A DNA stretch of 64,000 bases from Propionicimonas sp. Its GTDB lineage: Bacteria; Actinomycetota; Actinomycetes; Propionibacteriales; Propionibacteriaceae. Made by a program: the position numbers and the translations under genes. Positions within the stretch are counted from its first letter, which is position 1. The number at the start of each line of letters is the position of its first letter. Where the stretch lies: assembly GCA_013791955.1 (NCBI GenBank), contig VMSW01000007.1, positions 248,001 through 312,000 of the forward strand, given 5' to 3'. The notes under the pieces were generated by a model, which was given only the letters and a program-made list of their open reading frames with translations, made no database searches and had not been told where the DNA came from. Shown here piece by piece: positions 3,126-55,603 of the stretch.

Positions 3126-3257
3126 CGGCGAATCGGGCGGTATCAGGACTGCGACATCGCTGCGACGTGGCTGCGAAGACCGCTGGCTAGGTTGGCAAAA
3201 GGAGAGGTGTTCTCCACCAACCGCCCAGCGGCGGTCCCAGCGAAAGGTACTGCTCGG

Positions 3258-21563: not shown

Positions 21564-21616
21564 GGGAGTCGTCCGGCGGCCACCGAGCCCTGCAATCTGA
21601 ACGGCCGTTCCACCTC

Positions 21617-38612: not shown

Positions 38613-40567
38613 GACGCCTGGCTGGTCCGCTGGGCGGCGCGAAGAGTGATCGCGTCCCAGTCGGCATCGGAGAAGTCGAAGGTCTTGCTTGGGTTGGCCA
38701 GCAGATAGGTGACCCGATTGCCAACGGTGACCACGGCCACCCGGAAGACCACCGTGCTGGTGTTGGTCTTGTGGGTGATCGTCCAGGTCTGACCCGAAAT
38801 CGGCACCTCGCCCTGGCCACTGCCCTTGACGCTCTCACCATCGACCACGACAGCGGTGGGCACCCGCTTGGCGCAGTTGGTGATCGACTTGCTGACGCTG
38901 GTGGCCAGCGTTGAGGCTGCCTTGTTGTCGGCGAAGGTGAAGGTGACCTGATCCACCCCGAAGGAAGCAGGCGCCTTGGAGTCGTTGGTCAGGATCAGCG
39001 TGCGCTGCCCCGAAGCGGTGGTGCCGGACACTTTGGTTAGATCGGTGCCCTCGCATTGCGAGCCGGGGGTGTTCACCGGCCAGTCGTGGAGGGTCCATTT
39101 GCCGGTACCAGGAGTGAGCCGAGGCACATCGGCCGGAAGCAGCCAGCCTGCGGGGGTGCCGGAAGCCGGGAGCGCTGAGGCAACCCCGATCGAGGCGGGG
39201 CAGGTGCCGGAGCCGCACTGGCGGGCCAGTGAGATGGCCGCGACCTGAGCGGCGGTGGTAACCGGGATGGTGTTGGCGGTGACGATGTCGAAGGTGTTGA
39301 TCGTCCGCCCGGTGCGAGCCAGCACCAGGAGATGATTCTCGGCCTTCACGGCCTGCACCTTGAGCTGCACGGCCTGGGCGTTATCGGCCAAACCGTTGAT
39401 GGTCGAGGCGCCGACGACCAGGGCTGAGCCGTCGGGGCAGGTGCCGGCCAGAGTCGCCTGAGCCTCATAGGCCTGAATGGCGCTGGCGTCATCGGGGTAG
39501 GTGCCGATGGTCTGCAGCACTGAACTGCCCTGGGCGGTGAAGAGCTTGCGGTTGGTGGTGCGTTCCGGCTGGGGAGTCGCGCCGGTGAGGCAAAGCGGAG
39601 TGCCAGCGGCGGTGGCCACCTGCCAGTCCTCGGCGGCGATGGGGCTGACCTCAGCTGTGGTGAGTAGTGGGTCGATCGCAGCGGTGCTGGTGTCGCTGGC
39701 GGAGCCGAGTGGCTTAGTCGTCATTACCCAGACCACGGCGGCAACCACCAGGGCGAAGGCGAGGACCGCGGCGATCACGATGAACGCCGGCCGGCCGCTG
39801 CGTTGGCGGGGGGTGCTTTCGCCGCGAGCGGGCTGAGTGGGGGTTACTCCGAGGCGAGCGGCTGGATCGATGCCGTTCTTGTCCGCCTTGGGTGCGCGCT
39901 TGGCAGCTTTGGCGTCTGCCTTGGCAGATCTGGCGTCCAGCTTGGCCTGGAGGGCGGCCTCTTTGGTGGCGGCCTTCTCGGCTTCGAGGGCAGCTTTTGC
40001 GTCGACTTTGGCCTGGGCCGCGGCTGCGCGGGCTTCCCGCCTAGTGAGCTTGGGCTCGGGTTCCACGGCTCGCAGGGGTGGGGTTGCCTGGCTACGCGCC
40101 GAGAGCCCCGAACGAGTTGAGGTGGCCGACACCGGCGCCACTGGTACTGCCGGGGCTTCAACCGGCTCGGCAGCGCGTGGGTAACTGACCGTCACCGCTG
40201 GCGGTGCGGTCGGACGGCTGACCGGCGGCAGCAGCGGCGCGTAGACCCGGGGCGGCGAGGACACGCTGACCGCTGAGCGGCGCGGGGCGGCCCAGCCATG
40301 GTCTGTTGGCGCATCGTCGGCGGAGAATCGTCGGCCGGCGGAAGCGGGCTGAGCTTCTGAAACCGGCAACACTGGCCGGGGTGGCGGAATCAGGGTCTGC
40401 AGCGAACCGTCGGAGTTCAGGGCCAACCGCCGCATCATGCCGGTATCGGTCAGTTCGGGGTCGTCAAACAGCGGCCCGGCCGGACTAGCAGAGCTGCTGT
40501 CCGAGGGCTCGCTCCAGTCGTCGGGTACTGGTCCGAGTGCCCGACGCGGTCTTTGTGACCCCTCCAC
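38609..40567 (-). CDS. Single-pass membrane protein with two PknH-like extracytoplasmic domains
   Basis: A 652-residue protein. Residues 1-175 are Pro/Ser-rich and probably disordered. About 175-230 is a Lys/Ala-rich helical stretch ([20 protein letters not shown]). A membrane helix follows (about 260-282, [20 protein letters not shown]). The exterior holds two modules of about 180 residues, each with cysteines (LCLTGAT, GTCPDG, QCGSGTC; then SQCEGTD, TNCAKR), resembling the sensor domain of mycobacterial PknH. There is no kinase domain. GTG start, four-base 3' overlap with sucD. It may be a sensor or receptor working with a separate kinase; the domain assignment is by pattern only. Confidence 0.6.
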
Positions 40568-40665
40568 GTGAAGATCCCGTCTGCGCTTGCGTGACTGAGC
40601 CAGTGTAGTAGGGCTGGCGTGTCCACCCAGCTAGAACAGGGGGCTTGGGTCAGCATGGACTCACC

Positions 40666-41862
40666 ATGGCTTCCCCTAAAACACGCTCTCACGCGCGGTT
40701 TCGCTTCAATGTGGCCTCCGCGAAGGCTGTACCAACCCTTGAGGATCAAGTGAGGATTCCCTGGCCCTTGGCTGCAATCGGCGGTGGCTTTCTAGCGGCC
40801 CTGGTCGGCGCTGTGGTGGTTGGCGGAGTCGTCCTGGCTGGCTGGTTGGGGGTCTCGTCAGTGCCGTTCGCTGCCATGCTCGCCTTTGCCGGGCGGGTGT
40901 GGTTGTTGGCCCATGGCGGAATAGTCAATGGGGACGGGGTAACCATCTCCATGGTCCCGCTCGGTTTGAGCCTGCTATTGGTCGGGCTGGCCGCCTGGGC
41001 CGGGTCGCTGGCCTACCGGCCGCCGTCGGTAGGTGCTGGATCGGTGCGGCGCCAAGTGCTGCTGACCGTCGTCCAGGTTGGCCTCGGCTACACCGCCGCC
41101 ACCCTCGCGATGGGCTGGGCAACCGGAGCAGAGCCGATGCGAGCTGTACCAGGCAGCCTGCTGATCAGCTTGGGCGGAGCCTTCCTCGGTGCTGGTTGGA
41201 AGGCTGGCTACCGCGGTGGCGGACCAGCTTGGCTGCGGTCAACGGCCAAAGGTGGGGCGGCGGGTCTGCTTGGGCTGGTGGTCGTCGCCGCAGCGGCGCT
41301 GGCCACCGCGATGGTGCAGGGGGAGCCCCGGATCGATTCGCTGGAGCAGGCCCTGGGATTCGACACCGGTGGCGTGGTGGTCTGGGTGTTGACCTGCTTG
41401 CTGTACCTACCGAACCTGCTGGCCTGGACCGCGGCCTGGATCCTTGGCGCCGGATTCACTCTTGGCGACGGTTCGCTGGTCGCTCCCTGGGGAACTCGCC
41501 TGGGACTGCTGCCGTCGATTCCGGTTTTCGGGGCGCTGCCGCCGGAAGGGTCCGGCTCGCTGACCGGGTGGCTGCTGGCCGGTGCCGTCCCCGGGCTGCT
41601 GGCCGGGGTTGCTGCGGTGCGCGCCAAAGCCGGACCGGTGGTGGCATCAGTGGGTGCCGGTGCAGCGGCCGGGCTGGTGGCCGGTCTTGGGTACGTGACT
41701 TGGGCGGTCTTGAGTAGAGGGGCCTTGGGGAGCGTGCGTTTCGCTGCGGTCGGCCCGCGGGTGCCGGAGGTGCTGATCGGGGTCCTCATCTTGACCCTGA
41801 CCGCCGCGCTCGGCGCGACCATCGCCTGGTTCGCTGATCGCCGGGCGGGGTCCGCTGACTGA
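40666..41862 (+). CDS. DUF6350 (cell division protein PerM-like) membrane protein
   Basis: A 398-residue polytopic protein with about ten helices and many Gly/Ala residues, with AWAGSLAYRPPSVGAGSVRRQ after helix 3 and GALPPEGSGSLTGWLLAGAVPG near the centre. Its place directly before purN matches a family found there in many actinobacteria. The start is uncertain: ATG 40666 is used; TTG 40645 and GTG 40750 (GAGGA upstream) are alternatives. The function is not established. Confidence 0.7.
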   Translation: MASPKTRSHARFRFNVASAKAVPTLEDQVRIPWPLAAIGGGFLAALVGAVVVGGVVLAGWLGVSSVPFAAMLAFAGRVWLLAHGGIVNGDGVTISMVPLGLSLLLVGLAAWAGSLAYRPPSVGAGSVRRQVLLTVVQVGLGYTAATLAMGWATGAEPMRAVPGSLLISLGGAFLGAGWKAGYRGGGPAWLRSTAKGGAAGLLGLVVVAAAALATAMVQGEPRIDSLEQALGFDTGGVVVWVLTCLLYLPNLLAWTAAWILGAGFTLGDGSLVAPWGTRLGLLPSIPVFGALPPEGSGSLTGWLLAGAVPGLLAGVAAVRAKAGPVVASVGAGAAAGLVAGLGYVTWAVLSRGALGSVRFAAVGPRVPEVLIGVLILTLTAALGATIAWFADRRAGSAD

Positions 41863-41893
41863 GGCCGAGGCAGGAAAAGGCGCCTGGCTTCGG

Positions 41894-41899
41894 TAAGGT
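41894..41899 (+). promoter_or_regulatory. -10 hexamer, probable leaderless promoter of purN
   Basis: TAAGGT, seven bases before ATG 41907; there is no Shine-Dalgarno sequence. Confidence 0.4.
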
Positions 41900-41906
41900 C
41901 TATGCC

Positions 41907-42479
41907 ATGCCGCTGCGCCTGGTTGTTCTGATTTCCGGCTCCGGCACCCTTCTGCAGGCACTGCTGGACGCCTCGGCGGCCGGGCAACTGAATGGTGAGG
42001 TGGTGGCAGTCGGCTGCGACCGCGCCGATGCCTACGGGCTGGTGCGCGCTGAACAGGCCGGGGTGCCGACCTTCGTCCACCCTTTAGCTAAGGGGAGCGA
42101 TCGAGCGGTCTGGGATGCGGAGCTGGCCGAACGGGTCGCAGCATTTAAGCCTGATCTGGTCGTGAGCGCCGGCTTCATGAAGCTGGTCGGTGCCGCCTTC
42201 CTGGCCCGGTTCGGCGGACGGATGATCAACACCCATCCCGCGCTGCTGCCGTCCTTCCCCGGTATCCACGGTGTGCGGGACGCCCTCGCCCATGGGGTGA
42301 AGGTGAGCGGAGCGACCGTCTTCGTGGTCGACGCCGGGGTGGACACCGGCGAGATCCTCGCCCAAGAAGCAGTGCCCGTCCTCCCCGAAGACACCGAGGA
42401 GGTCCTACATGAACGAATCAAAGTGGTCGAACGGCAACTGCTGCTCGACTCGATCAATCACTTCAACTCAAGGGGATAG
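41907..42479 (+). CDS. purN: Phosphoribosylglycinamide formyltransferase
   Basis: A 190-residue enzyme transferring formyl from 10-formyl-THF to GAR in purine synthesis. The opening LVVLISGSGTLLQALLDAS, the catalytic region MINTHPALLPSFPGIHGVRDALAHG and DAGVDTGEILAQEAVPV match the family. It is followed without spacing by purH (TAGATG), then folD, which provides the folate cofactor. The mRNA is probably leaderless. Confidence 0.96.
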   Translation: MPLRLVVLISGSGTLLQALLDASAAGQLNGEVVAVGCDRADAYGLVRAEQAGVPTFVHPLAKGSDRAVWDAELAERVAAFKPDLVVSAGFMKLVGAAFLARFGGRMINTHPALLPSFPGIHGVRDALAHGVKVSGATVFVVDAGVDTGEILAQEAVPVLPEDTEEVLHERIKVVERQLLLDSINHFNSRG

Positions 42480-44039
42480 ATGAACGACGTGCTGCCCATC
42501 CGCCGTGCCCTGGTTTCGGTCTATGACAAGGCCGGGCTGATCGATCTCGGTCGGGCCTTGGTGGCCGCCGGTGTCGAACTGGTCTCAACTGGATCGACCG
42601 CGACCAAGCTGGCTGAGGCCGGGTTGGCAGTGACCCCGGTGGAAGAAGTGACGGGATTCCCCGAATGCCTGGATGGACGGGTGAAGACTTTGCACCCGAT
42701 GATCCACGCCGGCATCCTGGCCGACCGTCGCTTGGCGAGCCATCGCGCCCAACTCGAGGAACTCGGCGTAGCCCCCTTCGACCTGGTGGTTTCGAATCTG
42801 TACCCCTTCACCCAGACGGTGGCCTCCGGGGCCAGCGCGGAGGAGTGTGTGGAGCAGATCGACATCGGCGGCCCGTCGATGGTGCGAGCCGCGGCGAAGA
42901 ACCACCCTTCGGTGGCCATCATCACCTCCCCGACGCAGTACCCGGCCTTGATCGAGGCGCTCGCCGCCGGTGGCTTCAGCCTTGCTCAGCGCAAGGAGTT
43001 GGCTGCGGCCGCGTTTGTGCACACCGCTACCTATGACATTGCGGTGGCCTCCTGGATGGGGTCGGTGCTCACCGACAGTTCCACCGGGGACGGCTTCCCG
43101 GCCTGGGTCGGCGCCAGCTGGGACAAGGTCGGCACGCTGCGCTACGGCGAAAACTCCCATCAGCGAGCCGCGCTCTACCGCAACGGTCACCGTCCGGTGG
43201 GTTTGGCCACCGCCGAACAGCTCAACGGCAAGGAGATGAGCTACAACAACTACACCGACGGGGACGCCGCCTACCGGGCCGCCTATGACTTCGCCGAGCC
43301 GGCAGTGGCGATCATCAAGCATGCCAACCCGTGCGGAATCGCGGTCGGCGCCGACATTGCTGAAGCTCATCGCTTGGCGCACGACTGCGACCCGGTTTCG
43401 GCCTACGGCGGCGTGATCGCGGCCAACCGGGAGATCACCGTTGAAGCGGCCACTCAGATCGCCGAGATCTTCACTGAGGTGCTGATCGCCCCCAGCTATG
43501 CCGACGGCGCTTTGGAGATCCTCACCCGGAAGAAGAACCTGCGAATCCTGGTGGCCCCGGCCTACCCGGTGGCACCAGTGGAGCTGAAGCCGGTCAGCGG
43601 GGGGCTGCTGTTGCAGGCCCCCGACCGGATCGATGCCGCCGGGGACGATCCGACCAACTGGACGCTAATCACCGGTGAGGCCGCCGATGCCGCCACCCTG
43701 GCCGATTTGGCCTTCGCTTGGCGGTCGGTGCGGGCGGTGAAGTCCAACGCAATCCTGCTCGCTGCCGGTGGCGCTTCGGTTGGCGTCGGCATGGGCCAGG
43801 TGAACCGGGTTGACTCCTGCAAACTGGCCGTCGAGCGGGCTGGGGATCGAGCGGTCGGCTCAGTGGCCGCCTCCGATGCCTTCTTCCCGTTCAACGACGG
43901 TCCTAAGATCCTCATTGAGGCTGGCGTGAAGGCGATCGTCCAGCCTGGTGGTTCCATTCACGACGACGAAACGATCGAGGCCGCTAAGGCTGCCGGAATC
44001 ACGATGTACTTCACTGGCACCCGGCACTTCTTCCACTGA
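42480..44039 (+). CDS. purH: Bifunctional AICAR transformylase / IMP cyclohydrolase
   Basis: A 519-residue enzyme of the last two steps to IMP. The N-terminal MGS-like cyclohydrolase (about 1-195, [31 protein letters not shown]) is followed by the AICAR transformylase domain with [18 protein letters not shown] and GTRHFFH at the C-terminus. It starts directly after the purN stop and uses 10-formyl-THF made by FolD, encoded ten bases downstream. Confidence 0.97.
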
Positions 44040-44048
44040 GGCGGACAG

Positions 44049-44897
44049 ATGACTGCGAACAAGCTCGATGGCAAGGCCGTCGCCGCCGCGATCAAGGCCG
44101 AGTTGGGTCTGCGGGTGCGAGCCTTGGCTGACAAGGGCATCCGGCCAGGCCTGGCCACCGTCCTGGTCGGGGACGACCCGGGCAGCCGTGCCTATGTGGG
44201 CATGAAGCATCGCGACTGTGCTGAGGTGGGCATCGAGTCGATTCGGGTGGATCTACCAGCCGATGCACCGGCTGAGATGGTCGCCGAGGCGATCACCGGG
44301 CTGAACGCCGATGACGGCTGCACCGGTTACATCATTCAGCTACCGCTGCCGCGGCACTTGGACGAGAACGCAATGCTGGCCCTGATCGATCCGGACAAGG
44401 ACGCCGACGGTCTGCACCCGATCAACCTGGGCAAGCTGGTGCTCAACGAGCCGGCTCCACTGCCCTGCACCCCGCGCGGCATTGTGGAGCTACTGCGGCG
44501 CCATGACGTGGCCCTGGCCGGCGCCAATGTCTGCGTGATCGGCCGGGGGATTACCGTCGGTCGGCCGCTGGGTCTGATCCTCACCAGACGCAGCGAAAAC
44601 GCCACCGTCACCCTTTGTCACACCGGCACTCGGGATCTGGCCGCGCACACTCGCGCGGCCGACATCGTGGTGGCCGCCGCTGGTGTGCCGCACCTGATCA
44701 CGGCCGATCTGATCGCCGAAGGTGCCGTCGTGCTCGATGTCGGCGTCAGCCGGGTGGACGGTGTGCTCACCGGGGACGTGGCCCCCGATGTTTGGGCCAA
44801 GGCCTCCTGGGTGGCTCCCAATCCGGGCGGGGTCGGTCCGATGACGCGGGCGATGCTGTTGCAGAACGTCGTGGATCGAGCTGAAGTTCTGGCATGA
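44049..44897 (+). CDS. folD: Methylenetetrahydrofolate dehydrogenase/cyclohydrolase
   Basis: A 282-residue Fol[21 protein letters not shown] contains the catalytic Tyr and Lys, [14 protein letters not shown] the folate loop, and [14 protein letters not shown] the NADP site; [19 protein letters not shown] closes the protein. It supplies 10-formyl-THF to PurN and PurH upstream. It overlaps the next gene by four bases. Confidence 0.97.
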
Positions 44898-45202
44898 CCG
44901 ATCAAGTTCCGGACACCCGTCCGCCGAAGAACTGGCTCCAACAGATCCTGGGCCAGTGGCCGCTGGCTGCGGTGCTGCTGGGCGTGTTCGTCGGTCTGGT
45001 GATCGCGGTGCCGTTCGGGCATTGGCGGATTGGTTGCACCCTCATTGGCGCCTCCGCTACGGCTGGCGGCCTGTTGCGGCTGATGCCGCAACAGCGGGTT
45101 GGCCTGTTGGCCGTCCGGAGCCGACTGATCGACACCACGCTGCTGCTTGGAACTGGGCTGGGCATTCTGGTGCTGGCATGGGTGATTCCACCTAGTCGCT
45201 GA
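44894..45202 (+). CDS. DUF3017 membrane protein
   Basis: A 102-residue protein with three hydrophobic helices ([51 protein letters not shown]) and the basic [14 protein letters not shown] motif typical of DUF3017, a family that follows folD in actinobacteria. It is translationally coupled to folD. The function is unknown. Confidence 0.85.
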
Positions 45203-45323
45203 CACCGGAGCGTCATCCCAGGCGGGCCGCGGACCCACTAGGCTGGCGCTGCCCGCTACGCCAGGCCGGTTGCGGCGCAGTCTTCACGGATCACGGTGCC
45301 AGGCCGACCGGAGGCGGTGAATC

Positions 45324-46706
45324 ATGACAGCAAATGCAAAGCCCATCGATCGGGCCCGGATCGCTGAACTGACCAAGATCGAGCAGCAGCGACTCGACGA
45401 GCGCACCCAGGCCTCGCGGGCCATGTATGCCAAGGCCAACGAGCACCTTTCCGGTGGCGTGGCGTCCTCCTATCAGGGCCGGGACCCGTGGCCGATTTAC
45501 ATCGATCGCGGCGAGGGCCCCAAGATTTGGGACGTCGACGGTACCGAGTACTACGACTTCCATAACGGCTTCGGCTCGATGGTTCAGGGCCACGCCCACC
45601 CGGCGATCGGCGAGGCCGTGGTGGCCCGCTACCCGCTGGGCACGCACTTTGGTTGTGCGGTGCCCGACAGCTTCGTGGTGGCCGATGAGCTGGCCAAGCG
45701 TTGGGGCCTGCCCAAGTGGCGTTTCACCAACTCGGGCTCGGAATCGACGATGGACGCGATCCGCATCGCCCGCGCCTTCACCGGCCGCGATGTGGTGATG
45801 AAGATCTTCGGCTCCTATCACGGGCATCACGACACCGTGATGGTTTCGATCGGCGTTCCCTACGATTCGATCGGTGACCGGGAGGACTACGCCTCGCTGC
45901 CCTACGGCGGCGGTATCCCGCAGTCGGTGGTCGACATGACCATCGCGGTGCCGTTCAACGATGCCGGGGCAATGGAGCGGCGCATTCAGCGGCTGGAGGC
46001 CGAAGGCCGCCTGCCAGCCTGCGTGATCATGGAGGCCGCCATGATGAACCTGGGCGTGGTGCTGCCAGCACCGGGCTACCTGGAAGCGGTGCGGGAGATC
46101 ACCACCCGCTATGGCATCGTGCTCATCTTCGACGAGGTGAAGACCGGTCTTTGTGTCGCTCCGGGTGGGGCAACCGAGCGTTTCGGGGTCACCCCTGATC
46201 TGGTCACCTTGGCCAAGTCACTTGGTGGCGGCCTGCCTTCGGGTGCGATCGGCGGCAGCGAAGAGGTCATGGCCATCGTCGAGAGCGGCAAGGTTTACCA
46301 GGTAGGCACCTACAACGGGAATCCGCTGTCGATGGCCGCCGCGCGAGCCTCGCTTGAGCAGGTATTGACTCCGGCCGGGTACGCGCATCTGGATCATCTC
46401 AATGAGCGGATTCTGGCTGGGGCCCGCGACATCATCGAGCGCTACAGTCTGCCCGGTTACGCGGTTGGCATTGGCTCGAAGGGTTGCGTCACCTTCTCCG
46501 AGGTTCCGGTTACTGACTACGAGAGCTACAAGGAGAATCAGGACGTCCCGCTCACCGAGCTCACTTGGTTGTGGAACATGAACCGCGGCATCTTCGCCAC
46601 CCCCGGTCGCGAGGAGGAGTGGACGTTGTCAGTGACGCATACCGACGAGGCGATCGACCATTACCTGGCGGTCTTCGATGAGTTGGCGGCCGCGCTGCGC
46701 GCCTGA
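45324..46706 (+). CDS. Class III aminotransferase, glutamate-1-semialdehyde aminomutase-like
   Basis: A 460-residue PLP enzyme. FTNSGSESTMDAIRIARAFT, SYHGHHD, LIFDEVKTG and the PLP lysine in LAKSLGGGLPSGAIGG match the GSAM/HemL group, but a 45-residue N-terminal extension and a modified C-terminus (NMNRGIFATPGREEEW) set it apart from housekeeping HemL. No haem gene is near. An aminotransferase for another beta-amino or semialdehyde substrate is possible. RBS GGAGGCGG; a strong terminator follows. Confidence 0.8.
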   Translation: MTANAKPIDRARIAELTKIEQQRLDERTQASRAMYAKANEHLSGGVASSYQGRDPWPIYIDRGEGPKIWDVDGTEYYDFHNGFGSMVQGHAHPAIGEAVVARYPLGTHFGCAVPDSFVVADELAKRWGLPKWRFTNSGSESTMDAIRIARAFTGRDVVMKIFGSYHGHHDTVMVSIGVPYDSIGDREDYASLPYGGGIPQSVVDMTIAVPFNDAGAMERRIQRLEAEGRLPACVIMEAAMMNLGVVLPAPGYLEAVREITTRYGIVLIFDEVKTGLCVAPGGATERFGVTPDLVTLAKSLGGGLPSGAIGGSEEVMAIVESGKVYQVGTYNGNPLSMAAARASLEQVLTPAGYAHLDHLNERILAGARDIIERYSLPGYAVGIGSKGCVTFSEVPVTDYESYKENQDVPLTELTWLWNMNRGIFATPGREEEWTLSVTHTDEAIDHYLAVFDELAAALRA

Positions 46707-46715
46707 ACAACTTGC

Positions 46716-46766
46716 GGAATCGGCCGGTGGCAGCGGGGAAACCCGCCCACCGGCCGATTCCTTTTC
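46716..46766 (+). terminator. Rho-independent terminator after the aminotransferase gene
   Basis: Perfect 15-bp stem (46716-46730 with 46747-46761), whose loop contains a second small GC stem, followed by CTTTTCC. Confidence 0.85.
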
Positions 46767-46844
46767 CCGGTGCTGGATCGTCAGGTCTCGGCGCTCGGCA
46801 GGTGGATTGTCTGCTGGGCGTTGGCGCGGCTTGGTTGGCATAGA

Positions 46845-46850
46845 TACGCT
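46845..46850 (+). promoter_or_regulatory. -10 hexamer, probable leaderless promoter of the W-repeat gene
   Basis: TACGCT, eight bases before ATG 46859; an overlapping TAGATA lies at 46841-46846. There is no Shine-Dalgarno sequence. Confidence 0.35.
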
Positions 46851-46858
46851 TCGGTCTC

Positions 46859-48322
46859 ATGAGCCAGACGCCACAAGAGCCTCAGGTGGGCCAGATTTCC
46901 AACGGCTACCAATGGAACGGCACCCAATGGGTGCCACTGAATCAGCAGCAGGCCCAACCGGCGCAAAATGCGCCGCAGGTGGGCCAGATCGCTAACGGTC
47001 ATCGTTGGGATGGCACCCAGTGGGTGCCGCTGGCCCAGCAGGCTCAGCAGGCGCCCCAGGTGGGCCAGATCGCGAATGGCTATCAGTGGAATGGCACCCA
47101 GTGGGTGCCGCTGGCTCAGCAGGCACCGCAGGTGGGTCAGGTCGCGAATGGCTATCAGTGGAATGGCACCCAGTGGGTGCCGTTGGCCCAACAAGCTCAG
47201 GCGCCGCAGGTGGGTCAGGTCGCCAACGGTCATCGTTGGGACGGGACCCGTTGGGTGCCGTTGGCCCAGCAGCAGGCACCGCAGGTGGGCCAGATCGCTA
47301 ATGGTCATCAATGGAATGGCACGGCCTGGGTGCCCTTGGCTCAACAAGCTCAGGCGCCGCAGGTGGGTCAGGTCGCCAACGGTCATCGTTGGGACGGGAC
47401 CCGTTGGGTGCCGTTGGCTCAGCAGGCCCAGGCCCCAGCTCAGCAGGCGCCGCAGGTGGGCCAGGTGGTGAATGGCTACATGTGGAATGGCACTCAGTGG
47501 GTGCCACCGGTTCAGCAGGGCCAGGCCCAGGCCCAGCAGGCCCAGGCCCAGGCTCAGCAGGCGCCGCAGGTGGGCCAGGTGGTGAATGGCTACATGTGGA
47601 GCGGCACTCAGTGGGTGTCACCGGTTCAGCAGGGCCAGGCTCAGGCCCAGGCCGCGCAAGCCCCAGCTCAGCAGGCACAGGCTCAGCAGGCGCCGCAGGT
47701 AGGTCAGGTCGTGAATGGCTACCAGTGGAATGGCACCCAGTGGGTGCCGTCCGCGCAAGCCCAGAACGCTCCCCAGGTGGGCCAAGAAGTCAACGGCCAT
47801 CGGTGGGACGGCACCCAATGGGTCCCGCTCGCCCAGGCCGCAGCGCCCGCAACCGGGCCGGTTGCCGCCGCTGACGGCGCGGCCGTGGCCGTGGCCGGGG
47901 AGTCAGCGTTGACCGGCCAGCTCAAGGAGCTGTCCGATTCCCTCCAGCTGACCTGGAGCCAGAAGCACGACGTGACCACGGTGGAGAAGGTGATTGCCCA
48001 GCGCACCGCGTTCATGGCCACCGCCAAGCTGGAATACCAGGCGAAGATCAGGATCAACGACGCCAGCCGAGAAGTCACTTTCCGTGAGCTGCTCAAAGAG
48101 ACCGGCGCAGGTATGTCAGGCGGCGACGACTCCGATGGCATCGGCTTCGGCTTCCAGGGTGGTTCCTATCATTCCGGTGGCGGGATGGCCGACGACATCG
48201 CCGAGCAGGCCGGTCGGTACGGCAAGCTCTACAGCTTCGACTTTGACTACGCCGCCTGGCGCGACCAGGTCAAGGCTCTGGTCGAGGCCGCCGGTTACCA
48301 GTTCAAGTACGGCGCCAAGTAG
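46859..48322 (+). CDS. Tandem W-repeat protein (11 x PQVGQxxNGxxWxGTxWVPL) with unknown C-terminal domain
   Basis: A 487-residue cytoplasmic-looking protein without signal peptide or membrane helix. Residues 8-324 hold eleven copies of a 20-residue unit, PQVGQ(I/V)ANG(Y/H)xW(N/D)GTxWVPL, joined by Gln/Ala linkers of 4-23 residues. The first seven vary between YQWNG, HQWNG and HRWDG forms; units 8 and 9 read YMW. The W-x-G-T-x-W core resembles the C-terminal half of DUF2510. A linker (325-350) leads to a domain of about 135 residues (ELSDSLQLTWSQKHDVTTVE, then ASREVTFRELLKETGAGMSG, then YSFDFDYAAWRDQVKALVEA) that I do not recognise. The gene lies alone between two terminators. Confidence 0.8.
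   Translation: MSQTPQEPQVGQISNGYQWNGTQWVPLNQQQAQPAQNAPQVGQIANGHRWDGTQWVPLAQQAQQAPQVGQIANGYQWNGTQWVPLAQQAPQVGQVANGYQWNGTQWVPLAQQAQAPQVGQVANGHRWDGTRWVPLAQQQAPQVGQIANGHQWNGTAWVPLAQQAQAPQVGQVANGHRWDGTRWVPLAQQAQAPAQQAPQVGQVVNGYMWNGTQWVPPVQQGQAQAQQAQAQAQQAPQVGQVVNGYMWSGTQWVSPVQQGQAQAQAAQAPAQQAQAQQAPQVGQVVNGYQWNGTQWVPSAQAQNAPQVGQEVNGHRWDGTQWVPLAQAAAPATGPVAAADGAAVAVAGESALTGQLKELSDSLQLTWSQKHDVTTVEKVIAQRTAFMATAKLEYQAKIRINDASREVTFRELLKETGAGMSGGDDSDGIGFGFQGGSYHSGGGMADDIAEQAGRYGKLYSFDFDYAAWRDQVKALVEAAGYQFKYGAK
46880..47830 (+). repeat. Coding tandem repeat, eleven 60-base units with variable spacers
   Basis: DNA encoding the eleven W-repeats. Two 77-base stretches (47189-47265 and 47342-47418) are identical, showing recent duplication or gene conversion inside the array. 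Confidence 0.9.
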
Positions 48323-48340
48323 GCCGTTCACCAAGCGCTA

Positions 48341-48378
48341 GGTCGCTCTGGGCTCAGCTTGGGCTGCCCAGAGCGACC
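48341..48378. terminator. Bidirectional terminator between W-repeat and lipase genes
   Basis: GGTCGCTCTGGGC (48341-48353) pairs perfectly with 48366-48378 across a 12-base loop. It lies after the W-repeat stop and overlaps the last codons of the convergent gene. Confidence 0.65.
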
Positions 48379-49247
48379 AGTACCGTCTTCAGCACTGCTG
48401 GGTCCCAGGTGAGGGCTTGTTCCCAGGGCAGCTCGAACTGGTCGGCAAAGAAGATCGAGTGGGCATCACCGAAGACGTGGCGCGCGGCATTCTTCAGCAC
48501 ATCAGCCTCGATCCCTTCGGCCAGCGCGCTCGGCAAGGTGACCAATCCGTCGTTGGGCCACATGCTGCCGGATCCGGTGAAGACATCACCGCCGATCAGC
48601 GTGACCCGGAGCCCCTCAAAGGCGCCCAGCTGGGTTGGCAGCCACTCGTCCACTGCTCGGCCAGCGACTTGTTGGCCCGCGTTGGGCGTGGGCAGGCTGG
48701 AAACCTCGTCGGCGAAAGCGGTGAGTACGTTCTCGAAGCGGGTGTCACCATTGGCTGCGCCCAGCGGCAGATCGCCAGCGGCGTAGTCGGCAGCGAAGCC
48801 GCCCCGCCAAGGCGTGCCGAGGGTGGTCAGCGACTTGATGTGGAGTTCAGATCCGGCCAGTTGGCTGATAGCAGCAGTGCTGAACAGCCCGCCCATGGAA
48901 TGGGCAACCAGCTGGAAGCTGCTGTGGCCGTACTGATTGCGGAGATAGTGCAGGAATGCGGCCAGGTTGGTGCCGGCAGCGTCGATGGTGCCGACCGAGT
49001 TCACCGTCAGCTCCGCATCGAGCACCACCGGCGGGTCGCTGAAGCCGGCGAATCCGTCGTCGGCGGTGGCCGTCCCTGGGCCAGCGAAGGCTGGTGAGGT
49101 GTAAACCGCATGCCCTGCCTGTTGCAGGCCGTCGCGGAGGTAGGTGTCGGTGCTACCGGCAGCCTGGCCGGTAGCACAGCCAGCCGCCGGTGTGGTGAAA
49201 GGACTGATCGCCGATCCACCAGAAACGATCACAATTGCCTCAGTCAT
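48354..49247 (-). CDS. Alpha/beta hydrolase, lipase-like
   Basis: A 297-residue hydrolase with the nucleophile elbow VAHSMGG after FLHYLRNQYGHSSFQ, the usual PGAP1/lipase arrangement. An acidic residue in WPNDGLVTLPSA and a histidine in FGDAHSIFF complete a plausible triad. I chose ATG 49247 because GGAGG is seven bases upstream. There is no signal peptide, so an intracellular esterase or lipase is likely; the substrate is unknown. Confidence 0.75.
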   Translation of the reverse strand: MTEAIVIVSGGSAISPFTTPAAGCATGQAAGSTDTYLRDGLQQAGHAVYTSPAFAGPGTATADDGFAGFSDPPVVLDAELTVNSVGTIDAAGTNLAAFLHYLRNQYGHSSFQLVAHSMGGLFSTAAISQLAGSELHIKSLTTLGTPWRGGFAADYAAGDLPLGAANGDTRFENVLTAFADEVSSLPTPNAGQQVAGRAVDEWLPTQLGAFEGLRVTLIGGDVFTGSGSMWPNDGLVTLPSALAEGIEADVLKNAARHVFGDAHSIFFADQFELPWEQALTWDPAVLKTVLVALGSPS

Positions 49248-49352
49248 GGCCACCTCCGGGGGGTTGAAACTCAGCCCAGGCTAGCCCCGGTGAAGTTGGC
49301 CCGCGCGGCTTCCGCGCCGATTGGGGCGAGCGGGTTCGTCCAACCAAGGCGG

Positions 49353-51065
49353 TTAGCGGAAGTCGCGCTCCAGGAACTGGTTGGCCGCATCTTCGGCGGC
49401 CACTCGCTCAGCTTCGCGCTCGCGCAGTTCCACCCGGCGGATCTTGCCTGAGATCGTCTTGGGCAGGTCGGTCACGAACTCCAGAATCTTCACTCGCTGG
49501 TAGGCCGAAAGCCGGTTGCGGGCGTGCTCGAAGATCTCCCGAGCCGCGTGGTGCGGCTCGATGGTCTCCTCGGTAACCAGGCACACGAAAGCTTTGGGTA
49601 CTGCCGCTCGGAGCGGGTCGGGGCTGGGCACGATCGCCACCTCAGTGACGTAGGGGTGTTCGAGCAGGATGGATTCAAGCTCGAAGGGCGAGATCTTGTA
49701 GTCCGACGCCTTGAACACATCATCGGCGCGCCCGACGTAGGTCAGGTAGCCGTCGGCGTCCACTGAGGCGATGTCGCCGGTGTGGTAGTAGCCGTCCCGG
49801 CAGGACTGGGCGGTCATTTCCGCATCGTTGTGGTAGCCGTCCATCAGGCCCAGGATCGGCTTGGCCAGGTTCAGGCAGATCTCGCCTTCGTCGTGGCGCT
49901 CCTCGCCGGTAACCGGATCCAGCAGCACCACCGGATAGCCGGGCATCGGGCGTCCCATTGAGCCATCCTTGACCAGCTGCCCCGGCGAGTTGCCGACGCA
50001 ACAGGTCATCTCGGTCTGGCCGAACCCGTCGCGAATGGTGCCGCCCCAGGCCTCGCGTACCCGGGTGATCACCTCTGGGTTGAGCGGCTCGCCGGCCCCC
50101 AGCAGTTCGCGGGGCGGGTTGGACAGCTGGGTCAGGTCGGCCTGGATCAGCATTCGCCACACGGTGGGCGGGGCGCAGAAGGTAGTCACCTGGTGGGCGT
50201 CCATCACCTTCATCAGAGTCGCGGCGTCGAAGCGGTCGTAGTTGAACACGAACACCGTCGCCTGGGCCAGGAAGGGCGCGAAGAAGTTGCTCCAGGCGTG
50301 CTTACCCCAGCCGGGGGAGGAGATGTTCAGGTGCACATCACCGGGCTGAACCCCGAGCCACCACATCGTCGACAGGTGGCCCACCGGGTAGGAGACGTGA
50401 GTGTGTCGCACCAGCTTCGGCCGCGAGGTGGTGCCGGAGGTGAAGTAGAGCAGGCTCAGGTCGCCGGCCGGGGTGGGGCCGTCGGGGACGAACTTGTCGG
50501 AGGCCCGTTTTGCCTGTGACATCGAGATCCAACCGGGGGGATTGTCCGCTCCCACCCCGATTCGCAGCACCGAGGTCGGCAACACGTCCAGTCGGGCGCG
50601 CAGCGAAGTCGGTGCCACCACCGCGCTGGCCTCGCCGTGCTCGACCCGGTAGGCGAGATCGGTGGCCGACAATAAGGTGGAAGTCGGGATCGCCACGGCG
50701 CCGATCTTGTAGATCGCCAGCAGGATCTCCCAGATCTCGATGGAGTTGTTGAGCATCACGATCAGCTTCGATCCGCGGCCCAGACCGAGCATTCGCAGCC
50801 AGTTGGCCACCTGATCGGAGCGTCGAGCCAACTCTGCGTAGCTCCAGGATTGGGCGACCAGATCGGCCGAGACGATAGTGACTGCCGGCCGGTAGGGGTG
50901 CTCGGCGGCGACCACGTCGAACCACTCAAGGGCGAAGTTGAACTCGTCCAGCTGCGGCCAGGCGAAGTCGGCGATCGTAGTGTCGTAGTCGAGGCGGTGC
51001 TCGAGCAGGAAGTCGCGGACTTTGCGGATAGCCCTGGTCGCTTCGGTTTCAGGACGGCCGGTCAT
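49353..51065 (-). CDS. Acyl-CoA synthetase, medium-chain (ACSM-like) AMP-binding enzyme
   Basis: A 570-residue adenylate-forming enzyme. The P-loop is LLYFTSGTTSRPKLVRHTH, the adenine site is DGFGQTEMTCC, the hinge aspartate lies in YHTGDIASVDADGYLTYVGR and the C-terminal catalytic lysine in TISGKIRRVEL. The pattern GAGEPLNPEV and SPGWGKHAWSNFFAPF favour the medium-chain/acetyl-CoA synthetase-like branch. I chose ATG 51065; upstream in-frame sequence is antisense to the GNAT gene. A palindrome upstream (51111-51128) may be its operator. The carboxylate substrate is unknown. Confidence 0.85.
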   Translation of the reverse strand: MTGRPETEATRAIRKVRDFLLEHRLDYDTTIADFAWPQLDEFNFALEWFDVVAAEHPYRPAVTIVSADLVAQSWSYAELARRSDQVANWLRMLGLGRGSKLIVMLNNSIEIWEILLAIYKIGAVAIPTSTLLSATDLAYRVEHGEASAVVAPTSLRARLDVLPTSVLRIGVGADNPPGWISMSQAKRASDKFVPDGPTPAGDLSLLYFTSGTTSRPKLVRHTHVSYPVGHLSTMWWLGVQPGDVHLNISSPGWGKHAWSNFFAPFLAQATVFVFNYDRFDAATLMKVMDAHQVTTFCAPPTVWRMLIQADLTQLSNPPRELLGAGEPLNPEVITRVREAWGGTIRDGFGQTEMTCCVGNSPGQLVKDGSMGRPMPGYPVVLLDPVTGEERHDEGEICLNLAKPILGLMDGYHNDAEMTAQSCRDGYYHTGDIASVDADGYLTYVGRADDVFKASDYKISPFELESILLEHPYVTEVAIVPSPDPLRAAVPKAFVCLVTEETIEPHHAAREIFEHARNRLSAYQRVKILEFVTDLPKTISGKIRRVELREREAERVAAEDAANQFLERDFR

Positions 51066-51110
51066 GGCTTCAACTCTCGTGGGGGAGTAGGGACTCCAGG
51101 ATCTTACCGA

Positions 51111-51128
51111 TACGGCTACGGAGCCGTA
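51111..51128. promoter_or_regulatory. TetR-type palindrome upstream of the acyl-CoA synthetase gene
   Basis: TACGGCT, four bases, AGCCGTA: perfect seven-base arms, 45 bases before the start codon. TACGG/CCGTA half-sites are typical of TetR-family regulators of fatty-acid genes; no such regulator is encoded in the window. Confidence 0.45.
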
Positions 51129-51135
51129 AGTTAGC

Positions 51136-51666
51136 TCAGTTCGCGGTCTGCGGCGCCAGCCGTTGGAATAGCAGGTGGTCTTGGTATCGGCCAGCGATCT
51201 GCAGGTAGGACGGTGCGTAGCCGAACTGCTCGAAGGCATTCCTGCGCAGGACGGCTTGGGAGCGAAGGTTTTCTGGAATGGTGCCAGCTTCGAGGCGGTG
51301 CAGGCCGAGATTGGTGAAGGCGATGCGAACCATTTCGGCCACCGCCGCCGTGGCCCGACCCTGCCCGCCGGCCGATGCTGAGAGCCAATAGCCCATGCTG
51401 GCTGACTGAAACGGGCCGCGCACAATGTTGTTCAAGTTGATCCGGCCGGCTAGCGCCCCGGTCTCATCCATTATCACCAGGCAGTGCATGGTGCCTGCCT
51501 CTTGGCGGTTGAGGTTGTCGGCGACGACCGCCTCCTGGCCAGCCGGGGTGAAGAACGACTCCGGACGCAGCGGCTCCCAGGGAGTCAGGAAGTCGCGGTT
51601 GCGGGTCAGTAACTCAGCCAACTCGGCGGCATCGCCGGATCGGAGCGGGCGTAGGAGGGGAGTCAT
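51136..51666 (-). CDS. GNAT acetyltransferase, RimJ/RimL-like
   Basis: A 176-residue N-acetyltransferase. It opens LLRPLRSGDAAELAELLTRN; the acetyl-CoA loop is ASAGGQGRATAAVAEMVRIAF and the C-terminal part is LHRLEAGTIPENLRSQAVLRRNAFEQ(F)G, as in ribosomal-protein or peptide acetyltransferases. No RBS is visible; CACAAT six bases before the ATG could be a leaderless -10. The substrate is unknown. Confidence 0.87.
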   Translation of the reverse strand: MTPLLRPLRSGDAAELAELLTRNRDFLTPWEPLRPESFFTPAGQEAVVADNLNRQEAGTMHCLVIMDETGALAGRINLNNIVRGPFQSASMGYWLSASAGGQGRATAAVAEMVRIAFTNLGLHRLEAGTIPENLRSQAVLRRNAFEQFGYAPSYLQIAGRYQDHLLFQRLAPQTAN

Positions 51667-51709
51667 CCCCGGATTGTGCCATCTGGGGGCGTCACTACCC
51701 CCAACACGC

Positions 51710-51743
51710 AGCGGTGCCCCGAGGCGAACCTCGGGGCACCGCT
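51710..51743 (-). terminator. Terminator of mdh
   Basis: Perfect 15-bp stem AGCGGTGCCCCGAGG with its complement and a four-base loop, directly after the mdh stop on the minus strand. There is no long T-run. Confidence 0.75.
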
Positions 51744-51756
51744 GGTTAACGACTGA

Positions 51757-52746
51757 TCAGATCAGGCCGAGTTCGGTGACCGCAGCCCGCTCTTCGACCA
51801 GCTCGGCAACCGAGGCGTCGATCTTGGACTGCGAGAACGCGTCGATTTCCAGGCCCTGAACGATCGAGACCTTGCCGTCGGCGATCGTCACCGGGAAAGA
51901 GGAGATGACACCCTCAGGAACGCCGTAGGAGCCGTCGGAGGGGATCGCCATCGAGGTCCACTGGCCGGCCGGGGTACCGAGTGCCCAGTCGTGCATACAC
52001 TCAACCGTGGCATTGGCTGCCGAGGCGGCCGAAGACGAACCGCGGGCCTCGATGATGGCCGCGCCACGCTTGGCGACGGTCGGGATGAAGGTGTTGGCCA
52101 CCCAATCCTGATCGTTGATGACCTCGGCGGCGTTCTTGCCATCGATCTGAGCGTGGAACACATCGGGGTACTGGGTGGCTGAATGGTTGCCCCAGATGGT
52201 CATGTGGCTGACCGAGGTGACCGCGACGCCAGCCTTCTGCGCTACCTGGGTGATCGCCCGGTTGTGGTCGAGGCGGGTCAGAGCCGCGAAGCGCTCCTTG
52301 GGGATGTCCTGGGCATTCGACATCGCGATCAAGGCGTTGGTGTTGGCCGGGTTGCCGGTCACCAGCACCTTGATGTCATCAGCCGCCACTGCGTTGAGGG
52401 CCTTGCCCTGGGCGGTGAAAATGGCGCCATTAGCGCTCAGCAGGTCGCCGCGCTCCATGCCAGCGGTGCGGGGGCGGGCGCCGACCAGCATGGCCAGGTT
52501 CACTCCGTCGAACACCTTGTTGGCGTCATCGCCGATCTCAACCTTGCTCAACAGCGGGAAGGCGCAATCGTCCAGCTCCATGACAACGCCTTGAAGCGCC
52601 TTCAGAGCCGGGGTGATCTCCAGCAGCCGCAGTTCAACTGGCTGGTCGGGGCCGAGCAGCGCGCCACTGGCGATCCGGAAAAGCAGGCTGTAGCAAATCT
52701 GCCCGGCTGCCCCGGTGACCGCTACCTTCACAGGAGTCTTGCTCAC
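51757..52746 (-). CDS. mdh: Malate dehydrogenase
   Basis: A 329-residue NAD-dependent enzyme with the dinucleotide loop [18 protein letters not shown], substrate arginines in [25 protein letters not shown] and the catalytic histidine in [13 protein letters not shown]. These mark the cytosolic-type bacterial MDH. I chose GTG 52746 for its GAGGAGA RBS. It interconverts malate and oxaloacetate in the TCA cycle and, in propionate-forming bacteria, in the succinate branch. Confidence 0.96.
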
Positions 52747-52918
52747 GTCTGTCTCCTCAACGAGTTTGGATGGATCCACTTCCGACGCTAGCAGGCCCAA
52801 CTGCGCGGTGGGCACCGGTAACGACATAGCCCACCCTGCGACACGGGGATGATTGCGGATCGGATATCGCCTAGGGGTGAGCTGCGGGTGGCGGTTCGCC
52901 GTCGGAGGCGCAGCGTTT

Positions 52919-52924
52919 TATGCT
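52919..52924 (+). promoter_or_regulatory. -10 hexamer, probable leaderless promoter of the phosphatase gene
   Basis: TATGCT, six bases before ATG 52931, with no good Shine-Dalgarno sequence. Confidence 0.4.
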
Positions 52925-52930
52925 CAGGTC

Positions 52931-53569
52931 ATGCGTTTGATCTTGGTGCGTCACGGCCAAACCAGCTCCAATGTGAGGCTCCTGTTGGATACGGCTGCTC
53001 CTGGCGCGGATCTCGATGACACCGGACGACAACAAGCCCTCGGCTTGGTCTCTCGGCTGGAGCATGAGGTGATCGACGCGGTGTACGCCTCAAATCTGGT
53101 GCGCACCCAACAGACTGTCGCCCCGCTGGCCGAAGTGCGAGCGCTGGACGTCCAGGTGCTGCCGGGACTCCGGGAGATTCCAGCTGGCCACGCGGAGATG
53201 GGTAATGATGCCTCCAGCTACGTGACCACCATGCTGAGGTGGGGCAATGGCGAGCTGACGGCTCGGATCCCCGGCGGCGAGAACGCCCTGGAGTTCATGG
53301 AGCGCTACGACCAGGCCATCGCCGAGATCGCCACCGGTGGGCACGCCACCGCGCTGGCGGTCAGCCATGGGGCAGCCCTGCGGGTGTGGGCGGCCGCGCG
53401 GGTGCCCGGTTTTCTGGACGCCATCGGCACCGCGCACTTCGCCAACACCGGCTGGGTCATTGCCGAAGGCTCAACCGAGGACGGGTGGGAGTTGGTCGAG
53501 GCGGTCGGCTTCATCCACTACGGCAACGATCCGACCCAGTTGCGCATTGCAGTCGACCCGATCAACTGA
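52931..53569 (+). CDS. Histidine phosphatase (phosphoglycerate mutase-like)
   Basis: A 212-residue histidine-phosphatase fold protein with the catalytic motif LILVRHGQTSSN, the phosphate-binding SNLVRTQQTVAPLAE and the second histidine in ALAVSHGAALRVW. These broad-specificity phosphatases act on sugar phosphates or nucleotides; true glycolytic mutases are longer with a different loop. It is divergent from mdh. I chose ATG 52931 because the family begins at this strand. Confidence 0.86.
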   Translation: MRLILVRHGQTSSNVRLLLDTAAPGADLDDTGRQQALGLVSRLEHEVIDAVYASNLVRTQQTVAPLAEVRALDVQVLPGLREIPAGHAEMGNDASSYVTTMLRWGNGELTARIPGGENALEFMERYDQAIAEIATGGHATALAVSHGAALRVWAAARVPGFLDAIGTAHFANTGWVIAEGSTEDGWELVEAVGFIHYGNDPTQLRIAVDPIN

Positions 53570-53629
53570 CTCGGGCCGGCTGCAAGCCGACTTCGGGAGT
53601 CGTCCAGTAGCCCCGGGGTGAGCGCGGAA

Positions 53630-54610
53630 TCAGTTGTAGCCCGTGGCCTTTTTGACGGCCCGCCCGTCGGCGAAGCCCACCGCCACCACCTTGGCCGTCG
53701 AGCACATGTCGTAGACCCGGACCTCGATGGTGTGGCCGTTGATCCGCTCGAAGGCGTACCGGCTACCTTTGCTGAACAGCCGCTTGGCAACCTTCTTGAC
53801 TGAGTCGCCGCGTCCCAGCCGGAGGGACGCCTTCACCTTCTTGTAGTCGGCCTTGGTGGCGCAGTCCTTGCGCCCGGCTTTGACGGTCAGGCTCTGGGCC
53901 TGAGTGATGGTCACGCTCGGCCCGTACACCTTTTCGGTGACCGGCTTGGTGAGGCTCGTCAATGCCTGGAGTCTGCCGTACGGGTTGAACTCGAACCCGG
54001 CGTCGCCATCGTGGACCCCGGCGTACACGTCTTCACCAACGCTGTTGTAGAGGTGGAGGTAGACGTCTTCCAGCTGCCAGGTACCTGCCACCTTCACCGT
54101 GCCGGGGATGTGGGCCTGTGGGACGTCGCAGGTCCCCGTCCAGGTGCCGGTGGTGTCGGTCGTCGAAGTCCTCGAGGTGAGGTTGCAGGTGGCGGCGTAC
54201 GGGGTGGTGGCGTAATCCGCAAACCAGGTCCCGACCGCCACGACTTCTTCCTGACGAGTCTGGTAGTCGAAGGGGCGGTAGCGGACCTTTTGGGTGACGG
54301 TGTACGTGCCCGCAGCGAGACTGACGGAGGTGGCGTCCCTGGCCACGGTCTTGTTGCCCTTCGTCACGGTGATGGTGGCCGAGTCCACCACGGCATCTCC
54401 CCTCTTGGTGTAACTGGGTGAGACGCGGTACTTGCCGTGATAGGGGGCGGTCTTGGTGCCGATGGGGTTGACCGTGATAGAACCGGCCTCAGCGTGGGCC
54501 GCCGGAATCGGTACCCCGGTCAACAAACCGACCAGGAGGGTAAGGGCGGCGGCGAGAATGAAGGAGCGGAACATCCTGCTTTGCCGAGGGAGGGAGAACA
54601 CGGTTTCCAT
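53630..54610 (-). CDS. Secreted protein of unknown function
   Basis: A 326-residue protein with a signal peptide (FRSFILAAALTLLVGLLTG, cleavage after AHA). The mature part looks beta-rich and repeats Thr/Val/Lys strands (VVDSATITVTKGNKTVARDA, YTVTQKVRYRPFDYQTRQEE), then TCNLTSRTSTTDTTGTWTGT, with a basic C-terminal region (KASLRLGRGDSVKKVAKRLF). It has few cysteines (CNL, TCD, DCA, DMC) that may pair. I do not recognise the family. ATG 54574 is an alternative start. Confidence 0.65.
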   Translation of the reverse strand: METVFSLPRQSRMFRSFILAAALTLLVGLLTGVPIPAAHAEAGSITVNPIGTKTAPYHGKYRVSPSYTKRGDAVVDSATITVTKGNKTVARDATSVSLAAGTYTVTQKVRYRPFDYQTRQEEVVAVGTWFADYATTPYAATCNLTSRTSTTDTTGTWTGTCDVPQAHIPGTVKVAGTWQLEDVYLHLYNSVGEDVYAGVHDGDAGFEFNPYGRLQALTSLTKPVTEKVYGPSVTITQAQSLTVKAGRKDCATKADYKKVKASLRLGRGDSVKKVAKRLFSKGSRYAFERINGHTIEVRVYDMCSTAKVVAVGFADGRAVKKATGYN

Positions 54611-54664
54611 TGGCGCAGCGTAGAAACCCGCCCAGCAGGCTCACAAGTCCCCTTTTGGGGTCAA

Positions 54665-55516
54665 CTAACTAAAGATCACCGTGCGGGAGCCGTCGAGCAA
54701 TACTCGGTGTTCGGCGAACAGCTTGACCGCTGCGGTGAGCGTCCGGCTCTCCTGTTCCTGGCCAACGCCGATCAGTTCCGGCACGTCCATGGAGTGGTCC
54801 ACCCGGCGCACGTTCTGCTCGATGATCGGGCCTTCGTCCAGGTCGGAGGTCACGAAATGGGCCGTGGCCCCGATCAGCTTCACCCCGCGGGAATGAGCTT
54901 GGCGGTACGGGTTGGCGCCTTTGAATCCGGGCAGGAATGAGTGATGGATGTTGATCGCTCGCCCGGCCAATTCGGCGCAAAGTTCGGGGGAGAGGATCTG
55001 CATGTAGCGGGCTAACACCACCAATTCGATGTCGTGCTCGGCGACAACGTCCAGGATGCGCCGTTCGACGGCAGCTTTGGTGTCGGCGGCGACGGTGTGC
55101 ACTTCGAACGGCACACCGTAGAAGCTGGCCAGATCGGCCAGATCAGGGTGGTTGGCGATGATTAGCGGCATCGAAATCGGCAGGTAACCCGACCGCTGCC
55201 GGAATAACAGATCGTTGAGGCAGTGCCCCTCTTTGGAGGCCAGAACCAGGGTGCGGCGGCGGCGTCCCACGTAGTCGAGTACCCAGATGGCGTCCAGTTC
55301 GGCGGCGACGGCGGCGAAATTGCGCTCAAACTCGGAGCGGTCGAAACCGGACTGCACCTGCACCCGCATGAAGAAGCGACCCGATTCGGTGGAGCTGAAC
55401 TGCTGCAGTTCGGTGATGTTGCCGTTGGCAGTGGCGATCACGCCGGCGACCTGATGGACGATCCCGGGACGGTCCGCGCACGACAGGGTCAGCAACCAGT
55501 GAGTGGAGTCGATCAC
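54665..55516 (-). CDS. purU: Formyltetrahydrofolate deformylase
   Basis: A 283-residue enzyme with an N-terminal ACT domain (LTLSCADRPGIVHQVAGVIA) and a formyltransferase-like hydrolase domain containing ARYMQILSPELCAEL and INIHHSFLPGFKGANPYRQA, with the catalytic Asp in TSDLDEGPIIEQNV. It releases formate from 10-formyl-THF and balances the one-carbon pool used by PurN and PurH. I chose GTG 55516; TAACGT seven bases upstream suggests a leaderless mRNA. Confidence 0.94.
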   Translation of the reverse strand: MIDSTHWLLTLSCADRPGIVHQVAGVIATANGNITELQQFSSTESGRFFMRVQVQSGFDRSEFERNFAAVAAELDAIWVLDYVGRRRRTLVLASKEGHCLNDLLFRQRSGYLPISMPLIIANHPDLADLASFYGVPFEVHTVAADTKAAVERRILDVVAEHDIELVVLARYMQILSPELCAELAGRAINIHHSFLPGFKGANPYRQAHSRGVKLIGATAHFVTSDLDEGPIIEQNVRRVDHSMDVPELIGVGQEQESRTLTAAVKLFAEHRVLLDGSRTVIFS

Positions 55517-55523
55517 GCCCCAT

Positions 55524-55529
55524 ACGTTA
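55524..55529 (-). promoter_or_regulatory. -10 hexamer, probable leaderless promoter of purU
   Basis: TAACGT on the minus strand, seven bases before GTG 55516. Confidence 0.35.
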
Positions 55530-55603
55530 GCGCTGCGCGGCGCCGTCCCCGCTCGTTGGCCGGAGTGGCGGCCCGGCGTCGTCATGGACGAGACTGTGGT
55601 GCG

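Follow-up and report, generated by a model that had tools for sequence, protein, structure and literature searches.

Here we describe a gene that encodes a string of eleven short tryptophan-containing units followed by a C-terminal domain (Table 1), located in a window of 64,000 nucleotides (the whole stretch of DNA analysed, positions 248001-312000 of contig 1). The gene gives a single match in its own genome, which comprises 3.1 Mb in 11 contigs. The preliminary description had reported an open reading frame with eleven tandem units, and both a loose pattern (W.G..W) and a tighter one recover this number. The units of the window protein follow the consensus VGQ[VI]xNG[YH]xW[ND]GTxWVP(L). In this consensus the invariance of V, G, Q, N, G, W, G and W holds by construction, since the tighter pattern imposed these residues; at the positions left free by that pattern, T and V are present in 11/11 units, P in 10/11 and the last L in 8/11, so that the consensus first proposed was nearly exact. 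The units are separated by Gln/Ala-rich linkers of 6-25 residues, and the array region as a whole, at the N-terminal side, contains 25.5% Q, 15.7% A and 6.5% W, with a net charge of about 0. At the DNA level the array is evident to Tandem Repeats Finder, in which the rows with a period above 70 score 438 to 602 against a threshold of 50. The C-terminal domain (hereafter C-domain), anticipated at about 135 residues, is present and measures about 142.

Table 1. Features of the W-repeat gene and its flanks, in window coordinates.
Feature	Coordinates	Strand	Remarks
Whole gene	46859..48322	+	ATG start, 487 aa, 52.4 kDa, without strongly hydrophobic segment
Array of 11 W-units, 18 residues each (VGQ..NG..W.G..WVP.)	46886..47830	+	Pattern search, repeat finding and model
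W-unit starts	46886, 46979, 47060, 47132, 47210, 47285, 47363, 47456, 47570, 47699, 47777	+	
C-terminal domain, residues 346-487	47894..48319	+	Predicted alpha-beta4-alpha-alpha-beta; unnamed family
Gly-rich loop of C-domain, about residues 417-444	48107..48190	+	Low model confidence
Perfect 15-nt inverted repeat, terminator-like	46716..46761	.	3' of upstream aminotransferase-like gene
Perfect 13-nt inverted repeat	48341..48378	.	Between W-repeat gene and convergent ORF 48354-49253, overlapping the end of that ORF

The gene is flanked by a perfect inverted repeat on each side (15 nt upstream, 13 nt downstream), but a terminator scan called no terminator, so that its description as lying between two terminators is plausible only. 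Its placement in an accessory block does not fit the neighbours, which include purH, folD and malate dehydrogenase, as well as two genes that score under the cut-offs of their models, one hemL-like (aminotransferase) and one acyl-CoA ligase-like. Parts of the local gene order are common to related genomes, and other array genes adjoin different genes. The acyl-CoA ligase-like gene lies two genes downstream of the window gene and is convergent; the array gene of genome G015 adjoins a dehydratase-like gene, a 3-oxoacyl reductase and a thiolase, again in convergent orientation. Since these neighbours are convergent and not co-directional, a function in lipid metabolism was set aside. Rfam gave nothing at its gathering threshold on 40000-56000. 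The collections searched gave no sign of phage or plasmid cargo: neither the window C-domain nor one stand-alone relative of it has a match in plasmids or phages, and viral contigs gave no match either with the stand-alone relative or with a 10-row C-domain alignment (A1).

Other features of the window were observed in passing. Two proteins encoded on the + strand at 42-812 and 3192-4109 resemble RTX calcium-binding proteins by eye, as each begins with a hydrophobic segment and contains numerous repeats of the GGxGxD type, and ABC-transporter-like genes lie between them. A direct repeat containing AGGAACCGTCCCCGT occurs at 56835-56960 and 21525-21565 (5 matches in the window with at most 1 mismatch, against 0.03 expected). 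A palindrome-like element, CCTGAGCTTGTCGAAGGG, occurs at 32622-32717, 18817-18920 and 13263-13280 (6 matches with at most 2 mismatches, against 0.01 expected), and at one of its sites 2.8 copies of a 34-base unit are repeated in perfect tandem.

The W-repeat was found in 15 of 197 sampled genomes of the taxonomic family (E 0.001 or better) and, among 396 genomes sampled across the phylum, in the window's own genome alone. The one scan that also covered other phyla, which sought close relatives of a single query, gave three loci, titled Propionibacteriaceae or Actinobacteria, and the nearest named relative found is the Propionibacteriaceae metagenome assembly UBA6122. The linkage of the array to the C-domain is complete among the sampled genomes of the taxonomic family: the C-domain is present in 14 of the 197 genomes, all 14 carry the W-repeat in the same open frame, and no C-domain without the repeat was found among them. 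In the fifteenth genome with the repeat, G022, three units are followed by the end of the contig. Eight genes are uninterrupted, and their unit numbers are 11 (window), 11 (G007), 10 (G025), 7 (G011), 3 (G015), 3 (G002), 3 (G508) and 2 (G027); the remaining array genes are interrupted by contig ends or masked bases, several draft genomes breaking within the array. Since G027 has a complete gene with two units only, a long array is not needed. No characterised protein was found among the uninterrupted relatives, which have 2 to 11 copies; a characterised one with one or two copies would have spoken against the preliminary description. Taken together, the 15 genomes provide 77 units, in which the W's, the G's and the N/D-G pair are invariant by construction, the search pattern having imposed them, and in which the pattern-free positions hold Y or H in 77/77, P in 76/77 and Q in 71/77. 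A separate observation concerns the residues around the first W, which are coupled: among 56 distinct units there are 27 with Q-W-N, 20 with R-W-D, 3 with Q-W-D and 1 with R-W-N, the other 5 having M. This coupling may go back to common ancestry within each of two kinds of unit.

As had been anticipated, sequence searches did not assign the C-domain to a known family. It has no match in Pfam, NCBIfam or the PDB beyond chance-level Pfam rows (E of at least 0.096) in a few members, and four stand-alone or fused relatives gave no Pfam match beyond one at E 0.068. Searches of PADLOC and PHROGs with the C-domain yielded no credible family, the best result being one PHROG at E 0.0016 in 1/17 members. 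The protein as a whole appears undescribed: NCBIfam gave no name for it, and among the papers listed on DUF2510, on W-repeat and tandem-repeat proteins and on repeat proteins of the Propionibacteriaceae, none deals with it as judged by title or opening lines of the abstract.

The C-domain is not, however, the orphan it had been called, since it forms a family whose members outside the taxonomic family mostly stand alone. Profile searches recovered it from 11 of 30 sampled genomes at the level of the genus, from 3 of 296 at that of the class (the window's own and two with short stand-alone forms) and from 17 of 396 at that of the phylum, the window's own included; the other 16 (of 395) lack the repeat. 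In 13 of those 16, among them G203, where a stop falls within the match, the open frame that holds the C-domain has 147 to 242 residues and no W-array, and most stand-alone proteins have about 145 residues. In the other three the arrangement differs: in G244 and G190 the C-domain follows another N-terminal stretch, of which a 180-residue frame in G223 keeps only the tail. By profile search the stand-alone proteins (L018-L030, L034, L114 and L115) have the same domain as the window protein, from which they differ in the absence of a W-array, as judged in the phylum sample, and in their neighbours where these were read. A glycine-rich loop is shared by many members, with GFGF in 9 of 17 rows and G[FLW]G[FV] in 13 of 17 rows of a C-domain alignment (A2). 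A weak match in G057 (E 3e-5) was left out of account. The best explanation is that the C-domain folds independently and belongs to an ancient actinobacterial family, as yet without a name, whose members are mostly single-domain proteins.

No common neighbour of the stand-alone genes that would point to a partner emerged from the neighbourhoods read by eye, which contained a flavodoxin-ferredoxin-like gene twice, a rubrerythrin-like gene twice, a fibronectin-like secreted gene twice, a DUF2779-like gene once, and single others. In both L116 (5293-6783) and L117 (7336-8912), the gene for a remote stand-alone C-domain follows, at distances of 3 and 8 bases, a gene whose product looks secreted and fibronectin-like by eye. 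A different N-terminal stretch, of ~100 residues and with a TADGxTKxVMW-like motif, precedes the C-domain in related genomes of another lineage (L031 and L033; L032 has only its tail), apparently a second, separate fusion.

In a tree of 27 C-domains, from which G425, G203, G174, G152, G190 and a second copy in G399 (6 of the 17 other phylum matches) were left out, a branch supported at 100/100 separates the 14 array-bearing C-domains from all the others. If the root is assumed to lie outside the array-bearing rows, one fusion of array and C-domain therefore suffices, and we infer a single such event. Within the array-bearing group, the 7-unit gene of G011 groups with a 3-unit gene and a partial gene, apart from the genes with 10 and 11 units. 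This position, on a long branch and of unsure placement, suggests that the number of units changed separately after the fusion.

Many wall-binding proteins contain repeats of some 20 residues that are rich in tryptophan, glycine and asparagine, and the window protein could on that ground be secreted or wall-bound, its units binding glycan or teichoic acid in the manner of choline-binding repeats; in the one remote group of relatives mentioned above, moreover, the product of the fibronectin-like gene close to the stand-alone C-domain gene has a hydrophobic N-terminus by eye. The window protein itself argues otherwise. Its N-terminus reads MSQTPQEPQVGQ, neither a signal peptide nor a membrane anchor was seen from hydropathy and N-terminus, and the mean hydropathy over 19 residues peaks at 1.18, near residue 327, where the sequence is rich in Ala. 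Nor did the stand-alone relatives examined have an evident signal sequence by eye. The lack of a strongly hydrophobic segment suggests a cytosolic protein, and we regard wall binding as unlikely.

The likeness of the W-core to half of DUF2510 (PF10708), a domain usually present once per protein, had raised the prospect of an expanded DUF2510 array, in which the units would be true DUF2510 domains and carry whatever function DUF2510 has. The likeness itself is borne out. The array has the core W-[DN]-G-x-x-W, the same as in the source genome's own DUF2510 proteins; in each of the seven members with a match, among the eight tested, the best DUF2510 stretch starts at profile position 17 and lies within positions 17-34 of 35. 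These positions describe the best stretch of each member; those members that pass do so by summing several stretches. As whole proteins, three of the eight exceed the cut-off of 24 bits, namely the window protein (28.2 bits, 11 units), L014 (30.3, 11 units) and G011 (33.0, 7 units). Against an array of true DUF2510 domains stands, first, the constant restriction of the best stretch to the back half of the profile, the front half (PGWYPDP) being absent from the array. Furthermore, five of the eight members fall under the cut-off, including L015, which reaches 15.8 bits with 10 units, as well as the 3-unit members (22.2, 12.3 and 7.5 bits) and the 2-unit G027, which has no match; two single units likewise gave no match to the profile. 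A DUF2510 scan of the genome (E 0.001) returned three nearly full matches elsewhere and did not return the window gene. The array further differs from DUF2510 proteins in having 2-11 copies instead of one and in showing no membrane segment.

Other profiles behave similarly with the same proteins. The window protein, L014 and L015 pass the 27-bit cut-off of DUF2502 (PF10697) with 39.8, 39.2 and 36.2 bits, summed from 9, 9 and 6 stretches, while five of the eight members fail it (22.6, 11.0, 8.7 and two without a match), and L015 alone passes DUF5874 (PF19202, cut-off 27.1 bits) with 29.3 bits, the others having 13.3 to 23 or no match. The stretches that match these profiles carry the same short motif, as would be expected if a shared motif were the cause, and we read the DUF2510 match, and the array's profile matches in general, as most simply reflecting a shared W-[DN]-G-x-x-W motif. 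Descent of the array from half of a DUF2510 is possible; that the units are expanded, functional DUF2510 domains we consider rather improbable.

Both the array and the C-domain are under purifying selection. Comparison of the window gene with L014, its nearest relative, gives dN 0.026 and dS 0.226 for the repeats (334 codons), a dN/dS of about 0.11, and dN 0.003 and dS 0.200 for the C-domain (142 codons, with one amino-acid change), a dN/dS of 0.016. In the comparison with the next relative, L015, the ratio is about 0.15 for the repeats, with dS at 1.18 and thus near saturation, and about 0.42 for the C-domain (dN 0.30, dS 0.71), so that the order of constraint on the two parts reverses between the two comparisons. 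Among the window's own units dN/dS is about 0.14, from pooled pairs that are mutually non-independent. These values bear on the idea that the array is neutral filler, produced by replication slippage in Gln and Ala codons ahead of a working C-domain. Copy number and linker length do vary strongly and several draft genomes break inside the array, as slippage would predict, but the low dN/dS of the units, the retention of Y/H, P and Q through 77 units and the presence of the array in 14/14 genomes of the taxonomic family with the C-domain all argue against neutrality, and there is little chance that the array is filler.

The full-length AlphaFold model (mean pLDDT 57, pTM 0.31) contains a short strand-turn-strand for each unit, although units 8 and 9 keep only two residues of the last strand; the units have pLDDT of about 50-70, and all ten linkers contain stretches below 50. 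The units may fold as small hairpins on flexible connections. The C-domain, modelled from a four-row alignment (mean pLDDT 75, pTM 0.65), is predicted to consist of a helix, four strands, a low-confidence loop (domain residues 73-99), two helices and a strand. Foldseek searches with C-domain models returned nothing at E 0.001, either from the PDB or from viral models. The top PDB match of both models searched, which are not independent, being built from the same four source sequences, is Crl (6omf chain J, 127 residues; PF07417; PMC6917491), at E 0.012 and 0.0078 with probability 0.99, with TM-scores by target of 0.50 and 0.51 over 138 and 137 alignment columns, gaps included, and identities of 6-7%; KA1-like and BamC domains appear at lower ranks. 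Crl is similar in size to the C-domain, but shares no sequence match with it, and the structural match is below significance, so the predicted likeness is treated here as a lead only. A Crl-like factor that assembles sigma factor and RNA polymerase, tethered to the transcription machinery by the array, is very improbable, for although Crl ranks first with both models, the rmsd values are 9.2 and 7.8, a single Crl chain is found among the 50 matches listed per search, the source genome has no match to the Crl Pfam profile at E 10 whereas E. coli does, and none of the 10 rows of alignment A1 matches that profile.

The reading that we prefer, and to which we give about an even chance, is that the array makes the protein a multivalent tether or scaffold in the cytosol and lends avidity to a C-domain of an old, uncharacterised kind. 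The reading draws on the conserved mini-hairpins, on the flexible links between them, and on a unit number that varies while the unit sequence is held. On this reading, the C-domain would have been joined once, in an ancestor within the taxonomic family, behind a string of tryptophan mini-hairpins. Each 18-residue hairpin, on flexible Gln/Ala/Pro linkers, would provide a weak site of binding or of self-association, repeated along the chain as "stickers" on "spacers", and the avidity that keeps the C-domain at a partner, or collects it into clusters, would depend on the number of units. The activity of the protein would reside in the C-domain, since it exists alone in distant relatives. The array resembles the class of sticker-and-spacer low-complexity regions in its spaced aromatic units, its polar Q/A/P linkers and its near-neutral charge; it differs from them in its units, which are not single residues but conserved 18-mers that are predicted to fold. 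A bolder form of the tether-or-scaffold reading, which we put forward tentatively and think doubtful, is that the single fusion created a tunable scaffold, in which 2 to 11 mini-hairpins drive clustering of the C-domain in the cytosol, the number of units sets the strength of clustering, and the C-domain represents a new fold family.

The array-bearing proteins provide a natural series, from 2 to 11 W-units joined to the same folded domain, that would be useful for testing how valence relates to clustering or avidity in bacteria. They also bring to light a family of proteins of ~145 residues, spread across distant Actinomycetota, for which the libraries searched gave no model.
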